Source: Natronospirales bacterium (GTDB lineage: Bacteria > Pseudomonadota > Gammaproteobacteria > Natronospirales > REEB76). From it: a stretch of DNA of 38,095 nt. Positions 2-37,261 of the stretch are shown piece after piece. The translations under genes were made by a program, and so were the position numbers. The stretch spans positions 1 through 38,095 of the forward strand of contig JAGXAL010000006.1 of NCBI GenBank assembly GCA_018971605.1, in the 5' to 3' direction. Every line of letters starts with the position of its first letter. The stretch's first letter is position 1. The notes beneath the pieces were generated by a model. That model was not told the origin of the DNA. It saw only the letters and a program-made list of their open reading frames with translations, and did no database searches.

Positions 2-232
2 TTGATCGAACGGCCGAAGATGGGTTTCGGCGTGCCCATCGATACGTGGTTGTGCGGACCGTTGCGCGACTGGGCGGAAGCGCTGCTCTCCGAAGAGCGC
101 CTCAATCGCGAAGGCTTCTTCAACGCCGGACCGATCCGCGCCAAGTGGCGTGAGCATCTTTCCGGCAAGCGCCGCTGGCACTTCCCGCTCTGGGACGTGT
201 TGATGTTTCAAGCGTGGCTTGCGCAGCAATGA
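2..232 (+). CDS. Asparagine synthetase (glutamine-hydrolysing)-like amidotransferase, C-terminal fragment
   Basis: Only the last 76 codons lie in the window; the 5' end is cut off at base 1, so the ORF-track start is not a true start. The peptide [13 protein letters not shown] followed by a tail with [12 protein letters not shown] is characteristic of the extreme C-terminus of AsnB-type proteins (ATP-dependent amide transfer from glutamine). Such genes often lie in polysaccharide loci, where they are thought to amidate sugar carboxylates. The two glycosyltransferases that follow make that role more likely here than bulk asparagine synthesis, but this is inference. Its stop overlaps the next gene's ATG by 4 nt (ATGA), which suggests translational coupling. 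Confidence 0.85.
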
Positions 233-1395
233 ACCCAAAGCCACGACTGCTGTTTTTCGAGAATAATCCCGCGTATTTTCTGTCGCATCGCCTGCCGCTG
301 GCGCGCGCCGCGCAAGGCCTGGGCTTTGAAGTGCAGGTCGCCAGCATGCCGGGGAAATCCACGCGCGAGATCGAATCCGCAGGTTTTGCCGTGCATACAG
401 TGCGCATGCACCGCAGCCGCATGAATCCTTTCGCCGAGTTGCTCACGCTGCTGCGAATCCGCCGGCTGTACCGCAAATTGCGCCCCGACCTCGTTTACCA
501 GGTCACCGCGAAACCGGTGATTTACGGGATGCTCGCGGCCCGCAGCACCCAAGTACCGCATGTCGTCAGCGTGGTCTCGGGTCTCGGGCATGCTGCTACG
601 CGGCCGGGCATCAAAGGCTGGATTCTGCGACATATGCTTTTCTGGCTGTACCGCTTTGCGCTGCGGCATCCGTCCCAGAAAGTCATCTTTCACAACCGCG
701 ACGACCGCGATCTGTTTGTGAGCAAGCGCATGGTCAAGCCGGCGGATGCGGCAGTGGTGCCGGGTTCGGGTGTGGACATGGAGTATTTCTCGCCGCAAGC
801 GGAGCCCGAGGGTATCCCCAGGATATTGTTTCCGTCGCGCGTGTTACGCGACAAGGGCGCGGTCGAGTTTGCCGGAGCGGCTGCCTCTTTGCGGGCGGCG
901 GGCGTGCAAGCGCAGTTTGTCATTGCCGGCGGGACGGACCCGGGCAATCCCAGCGCGCTTTCCGAGGCGCAGCTCCGACGCTGGGTTGCCGAGGGCATCA
1001 TTGAATGGCTCGGCCATGCGCGGGATATGCGTGCGCTGTATGCCCAAGTGCACATCGTATGCCTGCCCTCGTATCGCGAGGGGCTGCCCAAAGCGCTGAT
1101 CGAGGCCGCGGCTTGCGGCCGGCCGGTGGTTACCACGGACGTACCGGGATGCCGCGAGGTGCTCATCGATGGCGAGACCGGTTTGCGAGTGCCAGCGCGC
1201 GACACGGCGGCGCTCGCGGCGGCACTCAAACGCCTGATCGAGGACCGGGACCTGCGCCGGCGCATGGGGAATGCGGGCCGGCGTTACGTGGCCGCGCGCT
1301 TCTCGACTGCGCAGGTGATTGCGCAGACCAGCGCGATTTTCACCGCGCTGCTGCCGTTGCCGTCCGGGTCCGCGGCGCACAGTGCCAACCCATGA
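229..1395 (+). CDS. Glycosyltransferase family 4, surface polysaccharide assembly
   Basis: A 388-residue GT-B fold glycosyltransferase, expected to transfer a sugar from a nucleotide-sugar donor to an undecaprenyl-diphosphate-linked acceptor on the cytoplasmic face. The C-terminal half carries the GT4 signature with two spaced glutamates (about E284 and E292, in [14 protein letters not shown]) followed by [14 protein letters not shown]. The N-terminal region resembles the CapM/PglA-type acceptor domain, but the donor and acceptor cannot be read from sequence. The ATG at 229 is chosen over the GTG at 214 because it forms an ATGA overlap with the preceding gene. It is followed by another 4-nt overlap, so three genes appear co-translated. 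Confidence 0.88.
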
Positions 1396-2504
1396 AAACC
1401 GTGATGTTTGTCCTGCCTTCTCTCGGCGGCGGCGGCGCGGAACGCGTGGTGCTGACGCTGCTCAAGCATCTGGACCGCACGCAATTCAGCCTGTCACTCG
1501 TGGTGATCAATACCAGACGCTCGGTGCATTTGGGCGAGGTGCCGCGCGACGTCGAGTTGATTGATTTCGGTTCGCGGCGTGTCCGTGCCGCGCTGGTCAA
1601 GTTGATGCGACTGATCCGCAGGCGCCGTCCGGATGTGGTGTTTTCCACCCAAGGGTATCTCAACCTGGGGATTGCACTGATCAAGCCGTGGCTGCCGGTC
1701 GCGACCCGCTGCCTTGCCCGCGAGACCAGCATCGTCAGCAAAGTCCTGCATCTGCACCGCCGGCCGGTTGTCCTGCGGTTTCTCTACCATAGGGTGTACA
1801 AGCGGCTGGACGCGGTTATTTGTCAGTCGCGTGCCATGCGCGATGACCTGGTTGCTGCCTATGCGTTTCCGGCCGGCAAAACTGTGATTATTCACAATCC
1901 TGTCGATGTTGACTGGGTGCGCGAGCGTGCCCGGGAAAAGGTTGAGCTTGTCGGGCTGAAGCCCGGCCGGTTGAATCTGGTGACTGCTGGGCGGCTCAGC
2001 CCTGAAAAGGGGTTGGATAGCGTGATTGCGGCGCTGGCGCTGTGTCGCATGCCGAATCTCAATCTCGTGATTCTGGGCGAGGGCAAGCTGCGTGCCGCGC
2101 TTGAGGCGCGCGCGTCGCAGTTGGGTGTTGGCGGGCAAGTGCAGTTCGCCGGTTTCCAGACGAATCCCTATCCCTGGTTTGCACACGCGGATCTTTTCGT
2201 GTTGGGTTCGCGTTCGGAGGGGTTTCCGAATGTGGCGCTGGAGGCGCTCGCCTGCGGCACGCCGCTGGTAGCGACACCCTGTGACAGCCTGGCGGATCTC
2301 GGTGTCGATGCCAGCGATGGATTGCTTGCCAGGGATTTCACTCCGCAAGCACTGGCGGATGCGATTCAACAGGCCGTTGCACGGCGCGCGGATTTTTCCG
2401 TTTCCATTGAACGTATTCGCACCAAGTTCGGCATCGACACGATTGCGCGCCAGTATAGGGATTTGCTGCTGGGTTCAGGCCGGGAACCGGCAGTGGTTGA
2501 GTAA
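1392..2504 (+). CDS. Glycosyltransferase family 4, second in the polysaccharide locus
   Basis: A 370-residue GT4 enzyme. The N-terminal loop has the GGGGAERV motif typical of GT-B transferases that act on lipid-linked glycans. The donor-binding half has the R/K pair (about R201 and K206, in GRLSPEKG) and the E-x7-E signature in SEGFPNVALEALACG (about E276 and E284). The ORF track extends it to 1005, but that stretch is a shadow of the previous gene; the ATG at 1392 overlaps the upstream TGA (ATGA). The product should add a further sugar to the same undecaprenyl-linked repeat unit. Linkage specificity is unknown. Confidence 0.88.
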   Translation: MKTVMFVLPSLGGGGAERVVLTLLKHLDRTQFSLSLVVINTRRSVHLGEVPRDVELIDFGSRRVRAALVKLMRLIRRRRPDVVFSTQGYLNLGIALIKPWLPVATRCLARETSIVSKVLHLHRRPVVLRFLYHRVYKRLDAVICQSRAMRDDLVAAYAFPAGKTVIIHNPVDVDWVRERAREKVELVGLKPGRLNLVTAGRLSPEKGLDSVIAALALCRMPNLNLVILGEGKLRAALEARASQLGVGGQVQFAGFQTNPYPWFAHADLFVLGSRSEGFPNVALEALACGTPLVATPCDSLADLGVDASDGLLARDFTPQALADAIQQAVARRADFSVSIERIRTKFGIDTIARQYRDLLLGSGREPAVVE

Positions 2505-2607
2505 AATTCGCATTGTTGCGACCTTGTGCACGCGCAACCATTGAACCGGGATCTTTTACCTTTCGTCGGTTGCCAGCACTTAAATTCCAGCATTTCACCA
2601 TAAGTGA

Positions 2608-2637
2608 TTGATTGCATAGGGATTGAACGGGTAAACT
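2608..2637 (+). promoter_or_regulatory. Weak sigma70-like promoter candidate upstream of the sugar transferase
   Basis: TTGATT and TAAACT are separated by 18 nt in the 223-nt gap between the second glycosyltransferase and the sugar transferase. Each hexamer matches the consensus at 4 of 6 positions. This is the least coding-like stretch in the first 17 kb, so a promoter here is plausible, but the match is weak. A second -10-like hexamer, TAAAAT, overlaps the previous gene's stop at 2502-2507. Confidence 0.2.
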
Positions 2638-2727
2638 GCCCACCTGCACAAATTATTAGATGGCCGTCTTGCTTTTCGGCGGGGATCGGATGAATTCTGG
2701 TTTTGCGGTCCAGGCGATCGACAGACA

Positions 2728-4044
2728 ATGAACCAAATGGAACTGCAGTCCTTGTATGTCACCGGCGCGGGACGATTCGCGGGCGGCCGTGCGCTGCGTT
2801 GGGGTTCCTTTCCGGTGCTGCTCTGGTCGCTGCTGGGGCTGGTATTGGTCATCGGCGGCTCGTTGCTTTTTGCCCTGCTGCTTGCCGTGCGCCCGGGTGT
2901 GGCGCAACAACTGTTCGTTCAGCATCTGCCTTTGATTCTCGCCGTGGTGGCTGCCTATGCGGTGGCCACGATCGTCATCGAAAAAATCAGCCGCTTTCCG
3001 GGTTGGAGCAGCGTGGCGGTAGTGTTGCCTGCGGTCACCGGCGTGTTTCTGGTGCTGGTGTGTACGTTGTGGATCGGGCGCTTTTATTATTCACGCAGTT
3101 TTTTGCTGGCGGCGTACTGTTTAAGCCTGTTGTGGCTGATGGTCGGCATGCACCTGCGGCGCCGCTATCTGATCCCGCGGCTGGCGCTGGTACTGGAGGG
3201 CGAGGCTACGGAACTTGCCAAAATCCGCGGTGTGCACTGGCAGGTGCTGGTGAAGCCGTCGCTGGCTAACACCCAGGTTGACGGCGTGGTGGTGGATCTG
3301 CATGCCAAGCTGTCCGATCCGTGGCTGCGTTTTATTGCCGACTGCGCCCTGCACAACGTCCCGGTCTACCACGCCCGCTGGGTTTACGAATCCGTTACCG
3401 GCAGAACCTCGCTTGAGCAAATGTCGGACGGCTTCATGAGCAGCCTGGAACCGTCCGGGACTTATCTGCTGGGGAAACGTGCCATCGACGTGCTGGCAGT
3501 GCTGGCAATATCACCGCTGGTGGTCCTTTTGCTGGCGATCATCACGCTGGCCATCAAGACGGATGCTCCCGGGCCGGTGTTTTTCGTTCAAGAGCGCGTG
3601 GGGCGCGGCGGCCAGATCTTCAGGATGTTGAAATTCCGCAGCATGCATTTGCAATCCGAGTCTGATGGTGCGCGGTTTGCTGATCATGCCGACCCACGCG
3701 TTACCCGCGTGGGCAAGGTGCTGCGCAAATGGCGGCTGGACGAGCTGCCGCAGGTCGGCAACGTGCTGTTGGGACACATGAGCCTGGTGGGCCCGCGGCC
3801 GGAGCAGGTCGATTTCGTGCGGTATTTCGAGGCGCAGATACCGTTTTACGGTTTCCGCCAGATCATCCGGCCCGGGATTACCGGCTGGGCGCAGGTCACT
3901 CACGGCTATGCCGCGGATGTCGAATCCACGGCGGAAAAACTCGAGCGCGACATCTATTACATCCGGCACATGTCCGTGTGGCTGGATGTTGCCATTCTGA
4001 TCCGCACCTTGCGTACCCTGATTACGGGATTCGGCGCCCGCTGA
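2728..4044 (+). CDS. Polyprenyl-phosphate sugar phosphotransferase (initiating transferase, WcaJ/WbaP-like)
   Basis: A 438-residue membrane enzyme expected to transfer a sugar-1-phosphate from a nucleotide sugar to undecaprenyl phosphate, the first step of a surface glycan. Four N-terminal membrane segments (about residues 29-53, 68-86, 97-115, 124-142) lead into a soluble middle region. A C-terminal bacterial sugar-transferase domain starts near residue 250, with the hydrophobic re-entrant helix, KFRSMH, the [10 protein letters not shown] block, and SLVGPRPE. The length fits the EPS polyprenyl glycosylphosphotransferase family. The start has little Shine-Dalgarno support. It ends 8 nt before miaB, an unusual pairing of a glycan-initiating gene with a tRNA-modification gene. 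Confidence 0.9.

Positions 4045-10028: not shown

Positions 10029-10038
<10 letters not shown>
8491..10038 (+). CDS. lnt: Apolipoprotein N-acyltransferase Lnt
   Basis: A 515-residue inner-membrane enzyme that adds the third acyl chain to the N-terminal cysteine of lipoproteins. Several N-terminal membrane helices (about residues 25-225) precede a periplasmic nitrilase domain. The catalytic triad is visible: E282 in WPEAA, K341 in YNKRHLVP and C393 in SICYED. A final helix lies near residue 495. Length matches E. coli Lnt. It is coupled to corC by ATGA. Substrates in this window would include LptE and the discoidin lipoprotein. Confidence 0.97.
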
Positions 10039-14932
<4,894 letters not shown>

Positions 14933-17515: not shown

Positions 17516-20266
17516 CTAGTAACCCTCCGCCCATATGGCAAACAGCGCCAGCGGCCAGCCGCTGCCGTCCCCAACCTTGCTGACCACCAGGCGCAAATAG
17601 CGTCCCTGGGTGTTCAGCAATTCGTCGCCGTTGATTAGCGGTTTTGTATTGCTGCGCGCCAGCACGGTTTTCCAGGTGAGGGCATCGTCCGATACCTGTA
17701 TCGAGTAGTCGCTGGGAGACTCTGCATTGTAGGGGGAGCCGTCGGCGCCACTCCATTGCAGACGGTCGATCTGGCGGCGTGAGCCAAAATCAAGCTGCAG
17801 CCAGGTGTTGTTGTTGTCAGGGGAAGCCGCAAGGTTTGCCAACCAGGGCTTGTCAGCCCCGTCCACGGCGTTGCCCGCCGGATATCCCGCCGCCTCGCTC
17901 TTGGCGCTGGCTTGGGCTCCCAATACCGCGGAAACGCTGCTACCTTCGGCCCAGAGATCATGGAATTGGGTGTCGGGGATGGGCGGGATCTGGATACGCA
18001 GGTAACGCCCTTGGGCGCTCAGCGCAAGAGTTTGCTGACCGAAAACGAGCGTGCGTACCTGCAATACCGTCCGCCAACTATTGCCGTTATCCGACACCTG
18101 TACTGTGCAGGCAAGCGGTTGGGCGTTGTTGGATACCGCGCGCCAGCCGATGCGGGTAATCTGCTGGCGTGCGCCGAAATCTATGACGTATCCGGTAAAG
18201 CTGCCCCCGGCAATCGGCCCGCCTCCGAGTGCAGGCAATCGCGCCGAGGGCGGTGGCGGCGCACCCTGCGCCCAGAATTCAGAAAAATCCGCCGGCGTCA
18301 GCGCGGAAGCGTCGGCTTGCGGTGCAATCAGGCGCACATAACGGGCCTGCTCGTTCAACAGTTCGTGGCTTGCGGTCAGCGCGCGGGCGTCATGGCGCAC
18401 GATAATCGTCTGCCAGAGGAGGCCGTCAGTCGATATTTCCACGGCGTAGTTTGTAAGCGCCGCGAGTGCCGCGGTTCCCTTGCTGCGCCAATGCAGCTGT
18501 TGCACCCATCGGGCGGTTCCAAGATCAAGCACCAGCCCGTTGACGGGGCTGGCGACCGCGCTCACCGTTGCCGGCAGGACTGAGGAACGCGGTAACGGCG
18601 AGGCGGTCTGCAGGGCGCGATCCAGGAAGTTGCGCGTCAGCTGCTGCACCCCGGGCACGCTGCCGCGGCTGCGGCCAAAGTCATCAAGACCGAGATCCCA
18701 GTCGATGGATCCGGCAGCGAATACGACCGCGCCGCTGGGCGCAGTATAAACGGTGGCGTTAGCCCAAATTTGCTGGCTTTCGGAGAGTGTTTTTGGAAAC
18801 CGCGAGCGCGCAACAATGACCGTGTTCACGGGCTGGTGACCGTGCACTGCATCCACTTCGTAGCCGAGGATATCGGGCAGTACAGCGCCGGCGTAGAGTC
18901 CGGTGCTCTGCGAAAGCCAGGCCGGCCAACCAGCCGGGGCGGTCACGGCAATGTCACCGATGGCTTTGGCCTGGCTGGTGCAGCAATTGCCGTTCCTTTC
19001 CGTTTCCGCGCCAATGAGCGCTTCTTCCGGCCGGTTTACCAGGTCGGTGTAATGCACCTTCCAGTTTTCCAGGTCGCTCCAGTAGCCGGTTGCGTAACGC
19101 CTTCTTGATTTGTCGCCTCCGGTTGCATACGGATCACGGCGTGCAACGTCTTCCTTGAAGGCGATCAGGCGTCGCTCAGGTTCGCCTTCGGCATCTGCCG
19201 CGTAGCGCGCCTGCCAGTAAACGGAGTTGCCGGAGAAAAACCCGAGACTCACCCCCTGATCGCGCGCCCTTTCCAGGTTGGCGCGCATGCGCCAGCTCCA
19301 GTATTCGCCGTGACCGACGATCAGGATGGCCTTGTGCTTTAAGAGGAGTCCGGGGTGTGCATCCAGGTCGGTGTCCGTGACGTAAGTGACATCCAGCCCC
19401 TCCCTTTCCAGCCAACGCAGCATGTTGATTTCGTAACTGAGGAAATCGCCGCTGCCCTCACCGCGCCAGTAGGGCCGGTCGAAGGAAACGCGGTAACCGG
19501 TTTTTTGATCTTTGAGCGGACCGCTCTTGAAGCGGGTATACAGCGAGCTGCCCCCCCATTCGTTGTAGGCCTGGTAGGTATTCACGCTGGAAATGAACAG
19601 GTATGCGGAAGGCCGGCTGTCGTCCCTGACCACGAAGATGATGTAGCTCTGCTGGCCGGCGGCGGTCTCAAGTTTTGCGAGGTACACGCCGCTCACCCAG
19701 GTTTCGGGGACCGTCAGCGTGTAAGCCGCCGGCCAGTGACATTCAATCAGGCCGTCCTGTCCCGGGTCCGGAACCGGCTGGGGATTGCCTTGCAAGGACA
19801 CCGGCCCGAGCACCAGTCTGGCCCCGGCTCCGGCGTACCAGCCGATGCGGAAAAAACTCATGGTGTAGCCGGTGGGCGAGCCGGTACTGACAAAAAACGT
19901 GATCGGTTCGCCGGGGTTCACGCTGGTTTTTGAGGCGTAACCCTGCACGGCGACTCCCGCATACAATTGCTTGGCATCGGCTTCGTTGTACGCGATGTTG
20001 TCGGTACACGGGTTGCAGGCAGGGGCCATGATCTTCCAGTCCCCGGATCCGGAAAGCAGGTTTTCCTGTGCAACGGAAACGCGCGTGTACCAATCGGGTG
20101 AAGTGGAGTAATCCGCTGCCCGATATTCCGCGGTGTAGGTGTCGGCGGTGGGAGCGCTGATTACGTCTGTGGTGACGTCCGGATTACCGCTCCCGTTACA
20201 GGCATTGAGCAGCAACACTGCGGTGGCTGTGACGGCCATCAACTTCCATGCAGATATGCGCATCAT
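17516..20266 (-). CDS. Large lipoprotein: N,N-dimethylformamidase-large-subunit-like domain plus three discoidin-like modules
   Basis: A 916-residue exported lipoprotein; the signal peptide ends in LLNAC (C23). Residues about 100-555 resemble the domain named for the N,N-dimethylformamidase beta subunit, with IIFVVRDDSRPS, QAYNEWGGSSLY, RWLEREGLDVTY, and IVGHGEYWSWRMRANLE followed by GFFSGNSVYW. Three F5/8 type C (discoidin)-like modules follow (about 565-668, 678-775, 778-914). Each has a paired TVQVSDNGNSW-like strand and a RYLRL strand, and each ends in FWAQG, LWAEG or IWAEG. Such modules usually bind glycans, so surface polysaccharide binding is a fair guess. No enzymatic activity can be assigned. 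It is the only reverse gene between rlmH and maf. The start is either of two adjacent ATGs (20266 or 20263). Confidence 0.82.
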   Translation of the reverse strand: MMRISAWKLMAVTATAVLLLNACNGSGNPDVTTDVISAPTADTYTAEYRAADYSTSPDWYTRVSVAQENLLSGSGDWKIMAPACNPCTDNIAYNEADAKQLYAGVAVQGYASKTSVNPGEPITFFVSTGSPTGYTMSFFRIGWYAGAGARLVLGPVSLQGNPQPVPDPGQDGLIECHWPAAYTLTVPETWVSGVYLAKLETAAGQQSYIIFVVRDDSRPSAYLFISSVNTYQAYNEWGGSSLYTRFKSGPLKDQKTGYRVSFDRPYWRGEGSGDFLSYEINMLRWLEREGLDVTYVTDTDLDAHPGLLLKHKAILIVGHGEYWSWRMRANLERARDQGVSLGFFSGNSVYWQARYAADAEGEPERRLIAFKEDVARRDPYATGGDKSRRRYATGYWSDLENWKVHYTDLVNRPEEALIGAETERNGNCCTSQAKAIGDIAVTAPAGWPAWLSQSTGLYAGAVLPDILGYEVDAVHGHQPVNTVIVARSRFPKTLSESQQIWANATVYTAPSGAVVFAAGSIDWDLGLDDFGRSRGSVPGVQQLTRNFLDRALQTASPLPRSSVLPATVSAVASPVNGLVLDLGTARWVQQLHWRSKGTAALAALTNYAVEISTDGLLWQTIIVRHDARALTASHELLNEQARYVRLIAPQADASALTPADFSEFWAQGAPPPPSARLPALGGGPIAGGSFTGYVIDFGARQQITRIGWRAVSNNAQPLACTVQVSDNGNSWRTVLQVRTLVFGQQTLALSAQGRYLRIQIPPIPDTQFHDLWAEGSSVSAVLGAQASAKSEAAGYPAGNAVDGADKPWLANLAASPDNNNTWLQLDFGSRRQIDRLQWSGADGSPYNAESPSDYSIQVSDDALTWKTVLARSNTKPLINGDELLNTQGRYLRLVVSKVGDGSGWPLALFAIWAEGY

Positions 20267-20561
20267 CGCGACGGTGCCTTGATCGAGGCAGGTGGACGAC
20301 GGCAGATTCTATTCCGGATTACGACGCCAGGCATATCAAAAAGTCGCAATTTTTGCCGGGCCCAGTGCCATGGGGGTGCCTTGAGAGCAAAGCGCGGGTA
20401 CCCTTATTACTGCAAGTAACATCAGCGGCTGGAAGCATCATGGGCTTAGCGGTGAATCCTTGCGTCGCTGGCGTCTTGGCGTCGGGCCCTGCGCAGACCT
20501 GCCCGGTCGAGTCTGCCAATGGTGCTACTTGTGAATAACAACCAGATTTGGGCGGCTCGGC
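20267..20561. other. Intergenic region between the divergent lipoprotein gene and maf
   Basis: About 295 bp must hold the promoters of both genes. The clearest feature is a 13-bp inverted repeat, TTACTGCAAGTAA (20407-20419), next to a GGGTACCC palindrome (20396-20403). On the minus strand a TAGAAT hexamer upstream of the lipoprotein gene would be a good -10, but no fitting -35 is present. No RNA gene or open reading frame is evident. Confidence 0.35.
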
Positions 20562-29153: not shown

Positions 29154-29356
29154 ATATAACGAAGTCTTATATTGAAAATTCCTGTTTCTCTGCTAAACCT
29201 ATTTAACCCTTGGAACGTGCGCTCGATAACCGGACATAACCGGTCAGGGCGATGCGTACGCGGGTGTTGTTATCAGGGACTGTCCCTCTCTCTATCTGAG
29301 TGAGTGCGCAGAATGGAAATAATGCCTCGATTGCACAGCGGGTTAGCGGGTGTAAT
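29154..29356. promoter_or_regulatory. Palindrome-rich control region upstream of the S53 peptidase
   Basis: The gap after tldD (about 237 bp) holds an ATATAA/TTATAT inverted repeat with a 7-nt loop (29154-29172), two direct ATAACCGG copies spaced one helical turn apart (29226-29233 and 29236-29243), and a 13-bp palindrome AGGGACTGTCCCT (29275-29287). A TGTAAT hexamer at 29351-29356 could be a -10. No terminator follows tldD. These are visible patterns; regulation of the peptidase by a DNA-binding protein is inference. Confidence 0.3.
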
Positions 29357-29388
29357 TGGGGCGACTTTCATCTTTCGGGGGTAAGCAC

Positions 29389-31356
29389 ATGTTTTCCAAG
29401 AACAGATTGGTTCTGATTGCGAGTTGCGCCTTGCTGGGTCTTACTGCAGGAATCGGCCTGTCCGCAAACGCTGCGGCCCCCCCGGATGCCGGACCCACGG
29501 CCGCGGCCAATACCATCACCACCTCCATCATCCTGAATGTCACCGATCCCCAGGGGCTCGCGAACTACGTGCAGGCGACGCTCACGCCCGGCAGCCGGAA
29601 TTTCCACCAGTTTCTGACGGTGGGCCAGTTCCGTCAGCGCTTTGCGCCTTCAAATCGCGAGGTCCAGCAATTCGTGCGTTATCTGCAATCTTTCGGCATC
29701 ACCGTCAATAAAATTTATGCGGACAACCTGGATATTACGGTGACGGGTACCGCGGCGCAGTTGAATGCAGCGTTCTCCACCGAGTTGCATGACTACGTGA
29801 AGAACGGCCAGCGATTCCACCGTCCGGCCTCCAAGTTCAGCATGCCCGGCAGTTTCGCCCAACTGGTGTTGGCGGTGCCGGGACTGAGCAACGAGCCCGG
29901 GCGCTTCCATCCAATGAACCTGCGGATGAAACCCGCGGTCGGGATTCCAGGTCAAGTGGCCGGCCAGTATCCGGCGATGACCTGGCCGCAGAACAGCACG
30001 GCCACCGGCATTCCCGGTGAATACACGGTCGGCGATGTGGCTAACTTCTACCAGGTCAATCCGCTGTATCAGGCGGGCATCAAGGGACAGGGCCAGACCG
30101 TGGGCATCATGACCTTGGCCAATTTCCGTAAGGCTGACGTGTACGCGTATTGGAGGAATATCGGCCTCAAGGTCAAGCCCGGCCGCATCACCAAGGTGGC
30201 GGTGGACGGCGGCATGCCGGTGCAGCAGGGCGTGGGTGATGACGAGACGTCGCTGGACGTGGAACAGTCCGGCGGCCTCACGCCACAGGCCGACATGCTG
30301 GTGTATATCGCGCCCAACACCAACAACGGCTTCATTGACCTGTTCTACAGCGCCGCTTCGGACAACGTGGCAGATACCGTGTCCATCAGCTGGGGTTTGC
30401 CGGAAGAGTTCTATTTCGCCGCGGCCAACGGCGGCGTGGACTTCACCGGCCAGATGCTGGCGATTGACCAGGCGCTGATGGAATCCGCAGCCCAAGGGCA
30501 ATCGGTGTTTACCGCCGCGGGCGATTCCGGGGCCTACGATGCAAACCGCGGCCTGCCGGTACCTTATTTCAACCCGCAACTGACGGTGGACTATCCAGCC
30601 TCGGATCCGTATATCACCGCCGCCGGCGGTACCACCATGAAGGGCTTGCAGCAGTATGGTTTGCCGGATGGCTCCACGCTCAACATCAACATCGCGCAGG
30701 AACAGGTGTGGGGCTGGGATTATCTCATCCCGCTTTGCAGTGCCTTGGGCTATGACCCGGTGAGTTGCGGTATTGAATTCGGAGGGGGCGGAGGCGGCGT
30801 CAGCTCCTTCTGGCCCCTGCCGTATTACCAGCAATCCGTGTCCGGCATCACCCAGACCCAGCCGGGCCAAAGCCTGACCTGTAACACTGCGGCGGCCTGC
30901 GCGGCTTTGGGTCTGGCCGGCACGCCGCCGCAGACATTGCTGACGCTGCCGGCGGGCTTTGCGGGCCGCAATCTGCCGGACTTGTCATTGAATGCCGATC
31001 CGCAAACCGGTTATGTGCTGGTGGACTGCACCGACTTTCCGAGACCCGCCAATCCGGGATGTGCGGCGACGTTTTTCGGCGGCACCAGCTTCGTGGCGCC
31101 GCAGTTGAACGGCATCACCGCGCTTGTTGATCAAGCGGCGGGTTCGCGCGTCGGCTTGCTGAATCCGGTGATCTACACGCTGCAGTCGGTGTTCGGTTAC
31201 GGCAAATACACACCGTTCAACGACATCACCGCCGGCGACAACTGGTTCTACCCCGGGGTTCCCGGCTATGACAACGGCGCCGGCATCGGCACCCTCAACG
31301 CCACCAATCTGGCGCTGACCTATGTGTTCCTGAATTCCCTGGGATTCGGACACTAA
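29389..31356 (+). CDS. Secreted S53 (sedolisin/kumamolisin-type) peptidase precursor
   Basis: A 655-residue pro-enzyme. An N-terminal signal peptide (about 1-29) is followed by a pro-kumamolisin activation domain (about 45-180) with FHQFLTVGQFRQRFAP. The catalytic domain has E286 and D290 (ETSLD), oxyanion aspartate D379 (AAGDSGAYD) and nucleophile S567 in GGTSFVAP. The calcium site is near D612 (NDITAGDN) with GYDNGAGIG at the end. Sedolisins are pepstatin-insensitive acid-active endopeptidases, so activity in an acidic exterior or periplasm is likely. ATG 29389 follows a strong GGGGG Shine-Dalgarno; the track's start at 29356 would put 11 residues before the signal peptide. Confidence 0.93.
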   Translation: MFSKNRLVLIASCALLGLTAGIGLSANAAAPPDAGPTAAANTITTSIILNVTDPQGLANYVQATLTPGSRNFHQFLTVGQFRQRFAPSNREVQQFVRYLQSFGITVNKIYADNLDITVTGTAAQLNAAFSTELHDYVKNGQRFHRPASKFSMPGSFAQLVLAVPGLSNEPGRFHPMNLRMKPAVGIPGQVAGQYPAMTWPQNSTATGIPGEYTVGDVANFYQVNPLYQAGIKGQGQTVGIMTLANFRKADVYAYWRNIGLKVKPGRITKVAVDGGMPVQQGVGDDETSLDVEQSGGLTPQADMLVYIAPNTNNGFIDLFYSAASDNVADTVSISWGLPEEFYFAAANGGVDFTGQMLAIDQALMESAAQGQSVFTAAGDSGAYDANRGLPVPYFNPQLTVDYPASDPYITAAGGTTMKGLQQYGLPDGSTLNINIAQEQVWGWDYLIPLCSALGYDPVSCGIEFGGGGGGVSSFWPLPYYQQSVSGITQTQPGQSLTCNTAAACAALGLAGTPPQTLLTLPAGFAGRNLPDLSLNADPQTGYVLVDCTDFPRPANPGCAATFFGGTSFVAPQLNGITALVDQAAGSRVGLLNPVIYTLQSVFGYGKYTPFNDITAGDNWFYPGVPGYDNGAGIGTLNATNLALTYVFLNSLGFGH

Positions 31357-35121: not shown

Positions 35122-36168
35122 ATGCATAAGTGGGTTTACTGGCTGGCCTGGTCGATCGTCCCGATTGTGCCGGCAACCGGCTGGGCAGCCGGCACTCCTG
35201 CCGCTGCCAGCCGCCAACCCATCGCCATCGTGATCCACGGTGGCGCCGGCACCCTCAGTCCCAAGGACATGACGCCGGGGCTCGAGATGGAATACCGCTT
35301 CGTGCTGCGCAAGTCGCTGGACGCCGGTTACGGCATCCTCAAGAAGGGCGGCACGAGCCTCAATGCGGTGCAGGCGGCCATCGAGGTGATGGAGGATTCG
35401 CCGCTGTTCAACGCCGGCCGGGGCTCGGTATTCACCCACGACGGCAAGAACGAAATGGACGCCGCCATCATGGACGGCAGCAACCTCGAGGCCGGGGCGG
35501 TGGCGGACGTGCAGCACATCAAGAATCCCATCGCGCTCGCGCGCCTGGTGATGGAGAAAACATCGCACGTACTGCTAGTCGGGGACGGCGCAGAAAAATT
35601 CGCACTGAGCCAGGGTATGCCGTTGATGCCCGCGAGTTATTTCTACACCAAGCAGCGCTGGGAGGAGTTGCAGCGTGCGCTCAAAAAAGAGGGTAACCAG
35701 GCCGCGGCGGTTCGCGAGCAGTACCCTGGCACGCAAGCCCATGGCTTCGGCACCGTCGGTGCAGTCGCGCTGGATCGCTACGGCAACATCGCGGCCGGTA
35801 CTTCCACCGGTGGCCTCACCAACAAACTGGATGGGCGCGTGGGCGATTCGCCCATCGTCGGCGACGGCACTTACGCGAACAATCTGACCTGCGGCGAGTC
35901 CGGCACCGGTATCGGCGAGTATTTCATGCGCCTGAATCTCGCCAAGGACGTGTCCGATCTGATGGAGTACAAGGGCTGGCCGCTCAAGAAGGCCGTGGAT
36001 TACGAAATCTACGACAAGCTGGTGAAATTCGGCGGCAAGAACAGCGGTGGTCTGATAGCGCTGGATCGCAAGGGCGACATCGTGACCGCCTTCAACACCA
36101 GCGGCATGTACCGCGGTTGGGTGGACACGCGCGGGCATGTGTTCGTGAAGATTTTCAAGGGCGAGTGA
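35122..36168 (+). CDS. Secreted isoaspartyl peptidase/L-asparaginase (Ntn-hydrolase, type III)
   Basis: A 348-residue threonine N-terminal nucleophile hydrolase with an N-terminal signal peptide (cleavage probably after WAA, about residue 23), so periplasmic or secreted. The precursor autocleaves before T211 in GFG|TVGAVALD to make alpha and beta chains. IVIHGGAGTL, DSPLFNAGRGSVF and NEMDAAIMDG mark the alpha chain, and TSTGGLTNKLDGRVGDSPIVG marks the beta chain. Family members release aspartate from beta-aspartyl peptides and hydrolyse asparagine. A strong AAGGAG Shine-Dalgarno precedes the ATG. A shorter paralog follows 244 nt downstream. Confidence 0.93.
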   Translation: MHKWVYWLAWSIVPIVPATGWAAGTPAAASRQPIAIVIHGGAGTLSPKDMTPGLEMEYRFVLRKSLDAGYGILKKGGTSLNAVQAAIEVMEDSPLFNAGRGSVFTHDGKNEMDAAIMDGSNLEAGAVADVQHIKNPIALARLVMEKTSHVLLVGDGAEKFALSQGMPLMPASYFYTKQRWEELQRALKKEGNQAAAVREQYPGTQAHGFGTVGAVALDRYGNIAAGTSTGGLTNKLDGRVGDSPIVGDGTYANNLTCGESGTGIGEYFMRLNLAKDVSDLMEYKGWPLKKAVDYEIYDKLVKFGGKNSGGLIALDRKGDIVTAFNTSGMYRGWVDTRGHVFVKIFKGE

Positions 36169-36412: not shown

Positions 36413-37261
36413 ATGGGTTTCTCGATCATCGTTCACGGCGGTGCCGGCAAGATCGAAGCGGCGAGTGCGCCATCGCGCATCGCCGGTTGCCGCGCGGCGG
36501 CCGAAACCGGCTATGCGGTTCTGGAACGGAACGGCAGTGCGCTGGATGCGGTGCAAGCGGCGGTGGTCGCGTTGGAAAACAATCCGTTGTTCAATGCCGG
36601 CACCGGCTCGACGCTCAACCGCGAAGGCAAAGTCGAAAACGACGCCGCCATCATGGACGGCGCCACGCTCCGGGCCGGCGCGGTGGCCGCCGTCAGCGGC
36701 GTGCGCAATCCGGTTAAGCTGGCACGCAAGATCATGGAAGCCGGCCCGCACATCCTGCTCGCAGGCGAGGGCGCCCATGGATTCGCGCGTGAGCACGACG
36801 TCGAGCTCTGTGATCCCGCTGAACTGGTCGTGGCGGCGCAGCGCGCGCATTGGGAAAAAGAACACGGCACGGTAGGCGCAGCAGCCCTGGACGCACACGG
36901 GCACCTGGCCGCGGCGACTTCCACTGGCGGGGTATTCGATAAACTCCCCGGGCGCGTGGGCGACACACCGTTGCTTGGCTGCGGCACTTATGCGAACGAA
37001 TACGCCGCTGTGTCCTGCACGGGTCTGGGCGAGGACATCATGCGTGTCACACTGGCGCGGCATGCGGCCTACCTTGTAGAGCAGGGCGCCGAGGCTTCGA
37101 GTGCTGCACGAGAGGCGATTGCGTATTGCTCAGGTAAAACCCGAGGCGAAGCCGGTCTTATTCTGGTGGACCGCGACGGGGGCCTCGGATTCGCGCGTAA
37201 TTCCGTCAACATGCCGGTCTGCGCCATGGCCGATGACGCCCGCGTTGTCCTGGAAATCTGA
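36413..37261 (+). CDS. Cytoplasmic isoaspartyl peptidase/L-asparaginase (Ntn-hydrolase, type III)
   Basis: A 282-residue paralog of the preceding gene without a signal peptide, so cytoplasmic. IIVHGGAGKIE, NNPLFNAGTGSTL and NDAAIMDGA mark the alpha chain; the nucleophile is T153 in HG|TVGAAALD. The linker before the cleavage site is much shorter than in the secreted paralog. Near the C-terminus RNSVNMP replaces the usual N-T-x-x-M, a small change in a conserved region. GAGG lies upstream of the ATG. It likely completes breakdown of imported isoaspartyl dipeptides; this is inference from family role and location. Confidence 0.93.
   Translation: MGFSIIVHGGAGKIEAASAPSRIAGCRAAAETGYAVLERNGSALDAVQAAVVALENNPLFNAGTGSTLNREGKVENDAAIMDGATLRAGAVAAVSGVRNPVKLARKIMEAGPHILLAGEGAHGFAREHDVELCDPAELVVAAQRAHWEKEHGTVGAAALDAHGHLAAATSTGGVFDKLPGRVGDTPLLGCGTYANEYAAVSCTGLGEDIMRVTLARHAAYLVEQGAEASSAAREAIAYCSGKTRGEAGLILVDRDGGLGFARNSVNMPVCAMADDARVVLEI

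Follow-up and report, generated by a model that had tools for sequence, protein, structure and literature searches.

The protein encoded between rlmH and maf in the window analysed here (38,095 nucleotides, one entire contig from a genome of 1.94 Mb and 91% completeness) is probably an exported, and likely membrane-anchored, metal-dependent amidohydrolase of the dimethylformamidase (DMFase) catalytic family. That it carries a DMFase-type fold and metal site we regard as nearly certain. DMFase itself converts dimethylformamide (DMF) to formate and dimethylamine, and the protein described here is not DMFase proper. Rather than being of a new kind, its architecture varies that of a known family, and the protein is a member of an exported, widespread branch whose C-terminal modules are interchangeable.

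Gene, family assignment and export signal

The whole gene occupies 17516..20266 on the (-) strand and encodes an exported protein of 916 amino acids that combines a DMFA2_C domain with discoidin-type modules; its limits are exactly those given in a first-pass annotation of the same DNA. In a Pfam scan, residues 136-528 scored 335 bits with DMFA2_C (PF20254), for which the cut-off is 27 (E=8e-100), and covered positions 2-369 of the 374 in the model, which places the protein in the DMFA2_C family. No NCBIfam model matched it. Within the source genome it is both the sole DMFA2_C protein and the sole F5/8C protein detected.

The N-terminus, MMRISAWKLMAVTATAVLLLNAC-NGSG, reads as a signal sequence (20198..20266, (-)) in which, as judged by eye, a hydrophobic stretch is followed by the lipobox-like LNAC at residues 20-23, with Cys23 as its last residue. 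The usual lipobox pattern does not include Asn at position -2, the residue present here. The protein had been called a lipoprotein in the first-pass annotation; anchoring of this kind appears from the sequence to be likely rather than certain because of this unusual Asn.

Fold and active site

Two domains precede the discoidin-type part. Ig-like domain I (residues ~104-215; 19622..19957, (-)) is uninterrupted and was delimited by a profile match to residues 5-41 of 6lvb, by AlphaFold2 strands and by the published domain limits of DMFase (PMC7686228), while catalytic domain III (residues ~216-555; 18602..19621, (-)) was defined by Pfam DMFA2_C, AlphaFold2 and Foldseek. Modelling with AlphaFold2 was restricted to residues 45-562 and a 45-row alignment because a mixed alignment misplaced discoidin rows from other loci; the discoidin part thus lies outside the model, which reached a pLDDT of 87.9 and a pTM of 0.91. 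A run on all 916 residues without an alignment gave a pLDDT of 32 and was discarded. When the model was compared with the PDB by Foldseek, the top matches were chains of N-acetyl-(R)-beta-phenylalanine acylase (8i5a/8huy; E=1.1e-22 for 8i5a, probability 1.00), along with the DMFase chains 6lvd/6lvb/6lve (E ~1e-19, 1.7e-19 for 6lvb, probability 1.00), and no comparable match was found beyond these two proteins. The TM-scores for acylase and DMFase chains were moderate (0.55-0.67), probably owing to differing domain arrangements. Structure prediction, which had been proposed as a check of the first-pass annotation, therefore gave a model that matches both enzymes.

The iron of the Paracoccus DMFase is bound by Y399, Y440 and E521, and three further residues are essential, namely H519 near the iron, N547 as the proposed oxyanion hole and E657 as the proposed catalytic base (PMC7686228). 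All six have counterparts here, each encoded on the (-) strand. Tyr234 (19565..19567), Tyr243 (19538..19540) and Glu321 (19304..19306) correspond to the ligands Y399, Y440 and E521, while His319 (19310..19312), Asn347 (19226..19228) and Glu470 (18857..18859) correspond to H519, N547 and E657, respectively. These equivalences were obtained by matching a profile of 29 relatives to the PDB chains, with numbering checked residue by residue; in the DMFase match, the mutant chains Y440A and E521A anchored the register. Each of the six residues is the same in all 45 aligned relatives. Only 14 of 518 alignment columns are invariant; the probability that six random columns would all fall among them is ~1e-10. 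The DMFase-type domain recognised in the first-pass annotation is thus upheld by the PF20254 match and by the retention of every iron-site and catalytic residue. That annotation had named two grounds for abandoning it, missing metal and catalytic residues and an architecture of already assigned function, and neither was found: in the collection of papers searched, the exported branch is given no function, and judged by title and abstract none of its papers that mention dimethylformamidase deals with exported members.

With the catalytic set completely conserved, the activity most readily inferred is amide hydrolysis, and we consider a metal-dependent hydrolysis of this kind to be fairly probable. 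As proposed for DMFase, Fe(III) or another metal would be held by Tyr234, Tyr243 and Glu321, where it would polarise the amide carbonyl and activate water, with Glu470 acting as the base and Asn347 stabilising the oxyanion. Alternatively, the domain could bind a metal or ligand without catalysis, the discoidin modules giving the function of a surface binding or adhesion protein. This is unlikely, even though adhesion-like modules abound among relatives (cadherin, Ig, DUF4082, NHL) and the two-Tyr iron site was likened by the DMFase authors to that of ferric-binding proteins (PMC7686228). Beyond the metal ligands, the His, the Asn and the proposed base Glu are invariant in 45/45 relatives, none of which would be needed for binding alone, and two DMFA2_C members (L114, 481 aa; L117, 511 aa) have no recognised accessory module.

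Discoidin-type modules

Three F5/8-type-C stretches follow the catalytic domain, each closed by a W-A-Q/E-G tag: module 1 (18263..18601, (-)) ends in FWAQG at residues 664-668, module 2 (17942..18262, (-)) in LWAEG at 771-775, and module 3 (17519..17941, (-)) in IWAEGY, its IWAEG lying at 911-915. Their pairwise similarities (z = 16, 23 and 20) stand 16-23 standard deviations above those of shuffled sequences. Module 3, scanned separately, is complete and matches positions 1-124 of the 127 in Pfam F5/8C with 64.3 bits, full-length and above cut-off. Modules 1 and 2 lack their N-terminal third and match only positions ~35-114, with 23-28 bits against curated cut-offs of 27.8/28.2. The three diverged, tagged discoidin modules of the first-pass annotation therefore stand, but two of them are truncated because they miss the first ~35 profile positions. 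In the proposed mechanism, module 3 would tether the enzyme to a surface or a glycan, with modules 1 and 2 perhaps serving as spacers.

Genomic surroundings

The left end of the window (2-4044) holds the C-terminal fragment of an Asn_synthase gene (2-232, (+)), two GT4 genes and an EPS sugar transferase gene. These are followed by miaB, phoH, ybeY, a corC-like gene, lnt, a Wzy_C protein gene (10029-11840), leuS, lptE, holA, nadD, rsfS and rlmH. The DMFase-like gene lies between rlmH and maf on the opposite strand; no same-strand gene adjoins it, and it forms no operon with its neighbours in the window. Beyond maf are rng, yhdP, a nitrilase-family gene, tldD, a gene for a kumamolisin-like protease, purK and two Asparaginase_2 genes. 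The protease gene beside tldD (29356-31356, (+)) encodes a pro-kumamolisin activation domain with a weak subtilase match (sedolisin-type protease), and the two Asparaginase_2 genes (isoaspartyl peptidase/asparaginase) neighbour each other at 35122-36168 and 36413-37261 (+). A short ATG frame, MGLAVNPCVAGVLASGPAQTCPVESANGATCE followed by a stop, is present between the DMFase-like gene and maf (20440-20538, (+)) and is perhaps a remnant.

A link to the AsnB-like gene had been suggested in the first-pass annotation, and EPS glycosyltransferases, the EPS sugar transferase and the Asn_synthase fragment at 2-4044, together with Wzy_C, could indeed point to an enzyme that tailors the product of a nearby EPS/AsnB locus. 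This we consider highly improbable. The AsnB-like gene is ~17 kb away across a mostly housekeeping run (miaB, phoH, ybeY, lnt, leuS, holA, nadD, rsfS, rlmH), the DMFase-like gene is on the opposite strand and missing in 10 of 10 congeners, and wherever the rlmH-maf interval of a congener is visible, this gene is not in it. The genome-neighbourhood survey proposed for this architecture covered 135 genes beside relatives and revealed neither an EPS enrichment nor recurrent polysaccharide genes, and the reading as part of a polysaccharide locus was set aside.

Distribution and gene history

PF20254 was found in 28 of 399 sampled genomes of Pseudomonadota, in 12 of 199 from the phylum of KBS 96, and in 70 of 249 from one further order belonging to the window's phylum. 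Exported members occur in several phyla with varying C-terminal domains, including F5/8C, DUF4082, Ig, cadherin, BACON and NHL. One Anaerolineae genome (G454) encodes five DMFA2_C paralogues (L068-L072) that form a single clade, i.e. a lineage-specific expansion. At another locus (L080/L113, G582:C199) an in-frame TAG interrupts the DMFA2_C match, which may reflect a decayed copy or a sequencing error.

In the tree, the 916-residue protein is sister to members from Bryobacteraceae and Acidobacteriaceae (98/96) and apart from those of its own class (L055, L110, L111 and L112). The DMFA2_C domain was found in none of the 10 congeners; in all eight with an rlmH match, maf follows rlmH directly or some hundred bases on, which makes the DMFase-like gene a species-specific insertion into the rlmH-maf interval. 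Because of its absence from congeners and its tree position next to Acidobacteriota, the gene was most simply acquired by horizontal transfer. Composition was set aside as proof of transfer, since its GC3 of 0.72 lies within the 0.68-0.84 of its neighbours and neither supports nor excludes such an event. In the two nearest congeners, the interval between rlmH and maf (L008, 1942-2411; L009, 1173-1500) is filled with REP-like palindromic repeats, TGTGGGAGCGG...CCGCTCCCACA, together with short tandem units; it shares no significant similarity with the insert. This repeat-filled gap may mark a permissive insertion site.

Association of the exported branch with CobW-type genes

CobW was the commonest family among the 135 neighbours of relatives (7 members). 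A CobW/COG0523 GTPase gene adjoins the DMFA2_C gene at 12 of 20 exported-branch loci labelled alphaproteobacterial by inference from genome groupings (L056, L057, L059, L060, L062, L063, L144, L149-L153), compared with none of the 21 other exported-branch loci and one of 10 pentraxin-type loci, the latter a weak match ~5 kb away. The two genes are separated by 3 to 41 bases in L149, L150, L056 and L057. The CobW-linked genomes, of 4.6-8.8 Mb, contain ~6-10 PF02492 matches each, and we estimate that adjacency by chance would occur at ~1% per locus. In a tree with several flagged long branches, 12 of 13 linked CobW proteins form one clade (99/99) apart from the remaining CobW copies in these genomes, with that of L153 falling outside.

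The linked clade is possibly a dedicated metallochaperone. A natural parallel would be the Fe-type nitrile hydratase, which is described as requiring a COG0523 activator in the COG0523 subfamily paper (PMC2770081), in whose main text the word 'formamidase' does not occur. The adjacency supports metal dependence for the exported branch and not directly for the 916-residue protein; because no CobW was detected in the source genome, such a link was ruled out there and the argument applies to the branch only. For that branch, the linked subfamily offers a concrete, testable pair of metallochaperone and client. More broadly, it is possible, although we would not call it likely, that exported DMFA2_C proteins constitute a large class of extracellular iron amidohydrolases that cleave polymer N-acyl groups and carry interchangeable surface- or glycan-binding modules, and that the alphaproteobacterial part of this class is supplied with metal by a dedicated CobW/COG0523 subfamily.

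Comparison with dimethylformamidase, acylase and related proteins

The large subunit of DMFase from Paracoccus sp. DMF (6lvb) resembles the 916-residue protein in the order of Ig-like domain I and domain III and in the six iron-binding and catalytic residues, with a family profile match of E=2.6e-104. The pentraxin domain II of DMFase (residues 74-337) is inserted in domain I (PMC7686228), and in the family profile match DMFase residues 5-41 and domain III form two separate stretches. In the 916-residue protein, in contrast, the pentraxin domain is missing and the Ig-like domain continues directly into domain III, leaving no room for an insert. A loop of ~30 residues between the equivalents of Y399 and Y440 is missing as well. 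Of the 45 alignment rows, 38 have a spacing of 9-12 between the two tyrosines, against 37-40 in the seven pentraxin-type rows. Finally, the 916-residue protein is exported and bears three discoidin-type modules, unlike DMFase.

The first-pass annotation had also remarked on the absence of a small-subunit gene, and none was found: an HMM built from seven small-subunit relatives detected no relative in the window, nor did a single-sequence search, run with no positive control, of the 91%-complete source genome. With the HMM, relatives were seen at none of 41 exported-branch loci, the window included, the branch having been assigned by eye from tree position, N-termini and accessory domains so that some members may not be exported. 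The pentraxin-type loci gave at least 17 of 37, a lower bound as some of them are short, and at the other 20 no small-subunit gene was seen. A conserved ~100-aa gene lies directly upstream of pentraxin-type DMFA2_C genes at L024, L121, L134, L139, L142 and L143, and its product is distantly related to the small subunit of DMFase (6lvb_B, E = 1e-4). Two-subunit enzymes thus seem to be common beyond DMF degraders. Taken together, the DMFase-type domain, export signal, discoidin modules and lack of a small subunit support the earlier suggestion of a role unlike that of the cytoplasmic two-subunit DMFase. By analogy, a bare domain III might be inactive, because the recombinant DMFase large subunit is inactive without the small subunit (PMC7686228), although the 20 pentraxin-type loci at which no small-subunit gene was seen weigh on the other side.

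The DMFase entrance is formed by the large and small subunits together; with the small subunit and the Tyr-Tyr loop lost, the site would be more open and could admit larger amides such as a glycan N-acyl group, a capped amino acid or a peptide. A substrate larger than DMF is favoured because the entrance would be enlarged and a binding module is present, while its identification as a glycan N-acyl group is tentative and open to considerable doubt, and the action on amide groups of polysaccharides put forward in the first-pass annotation is a guess. A periplasmic hydrolase of small amides (formamides, N-methylamides) that scavenges nitrogen or carbon is quite unlikely. The fold and residues are those of DMFase, which acts on DMF, N-methyl- and N-ethylformamide and weakly on formamide (PMC7686228), and a nitrilase-family gene and two Asparaginase_2 genes share the contig. 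However, these amide-hydrolysing genes are not adjacent, the DMFase-like gene is isolated among housekeeping genes, and the missing small subunit, the missing long Tyr-Tyr loop and the fused carbohydrate-binding-like modules all speak against it.

In both sequence and fold, the closest solved structure is that of N-acetyl-(R)-beta-phenylalanine acylase (8huy, 8i59, 8i5a), which has the same conserved residues and whose name implies that the family also cuts N-acyl amides other than formamides. Unlike the 916-residue protein, the acylase has a large insert separating its Ig part from domain III as well as a long Tyr-Tyr loop, and no discoidin modules were matched in it. The sister exported DMFA2_C proteins from Bryobacteraceae (L073, 51% identity over 441 columns) and Acidobacteriaceae KBS 96 (L074) have the same active site, but they are 1747-1930 aa long and carry other C-terminal domains, with no discoidin modules matched. 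A protein of the same class (L055, genome G054) also joins DMFA2_C to F5/8C within one chain; it has a single F5/8C module and belongs to a neighbouring subclade.

The iron site of two tyrosines and one carboxylate has been described as a feature of DMFase alone, an enzyme that acts on a man-made solvent, and the evolutionary origin of the site was left open. Because the same residues are invariant across a widespread exported branch, this site looks like general chemistry. The cytoplasmic DMFase is perhaps a specialised offshoot that gained the loop, the pentraxin domain and the small subunit, a direction that we infer from an unrooted tree.
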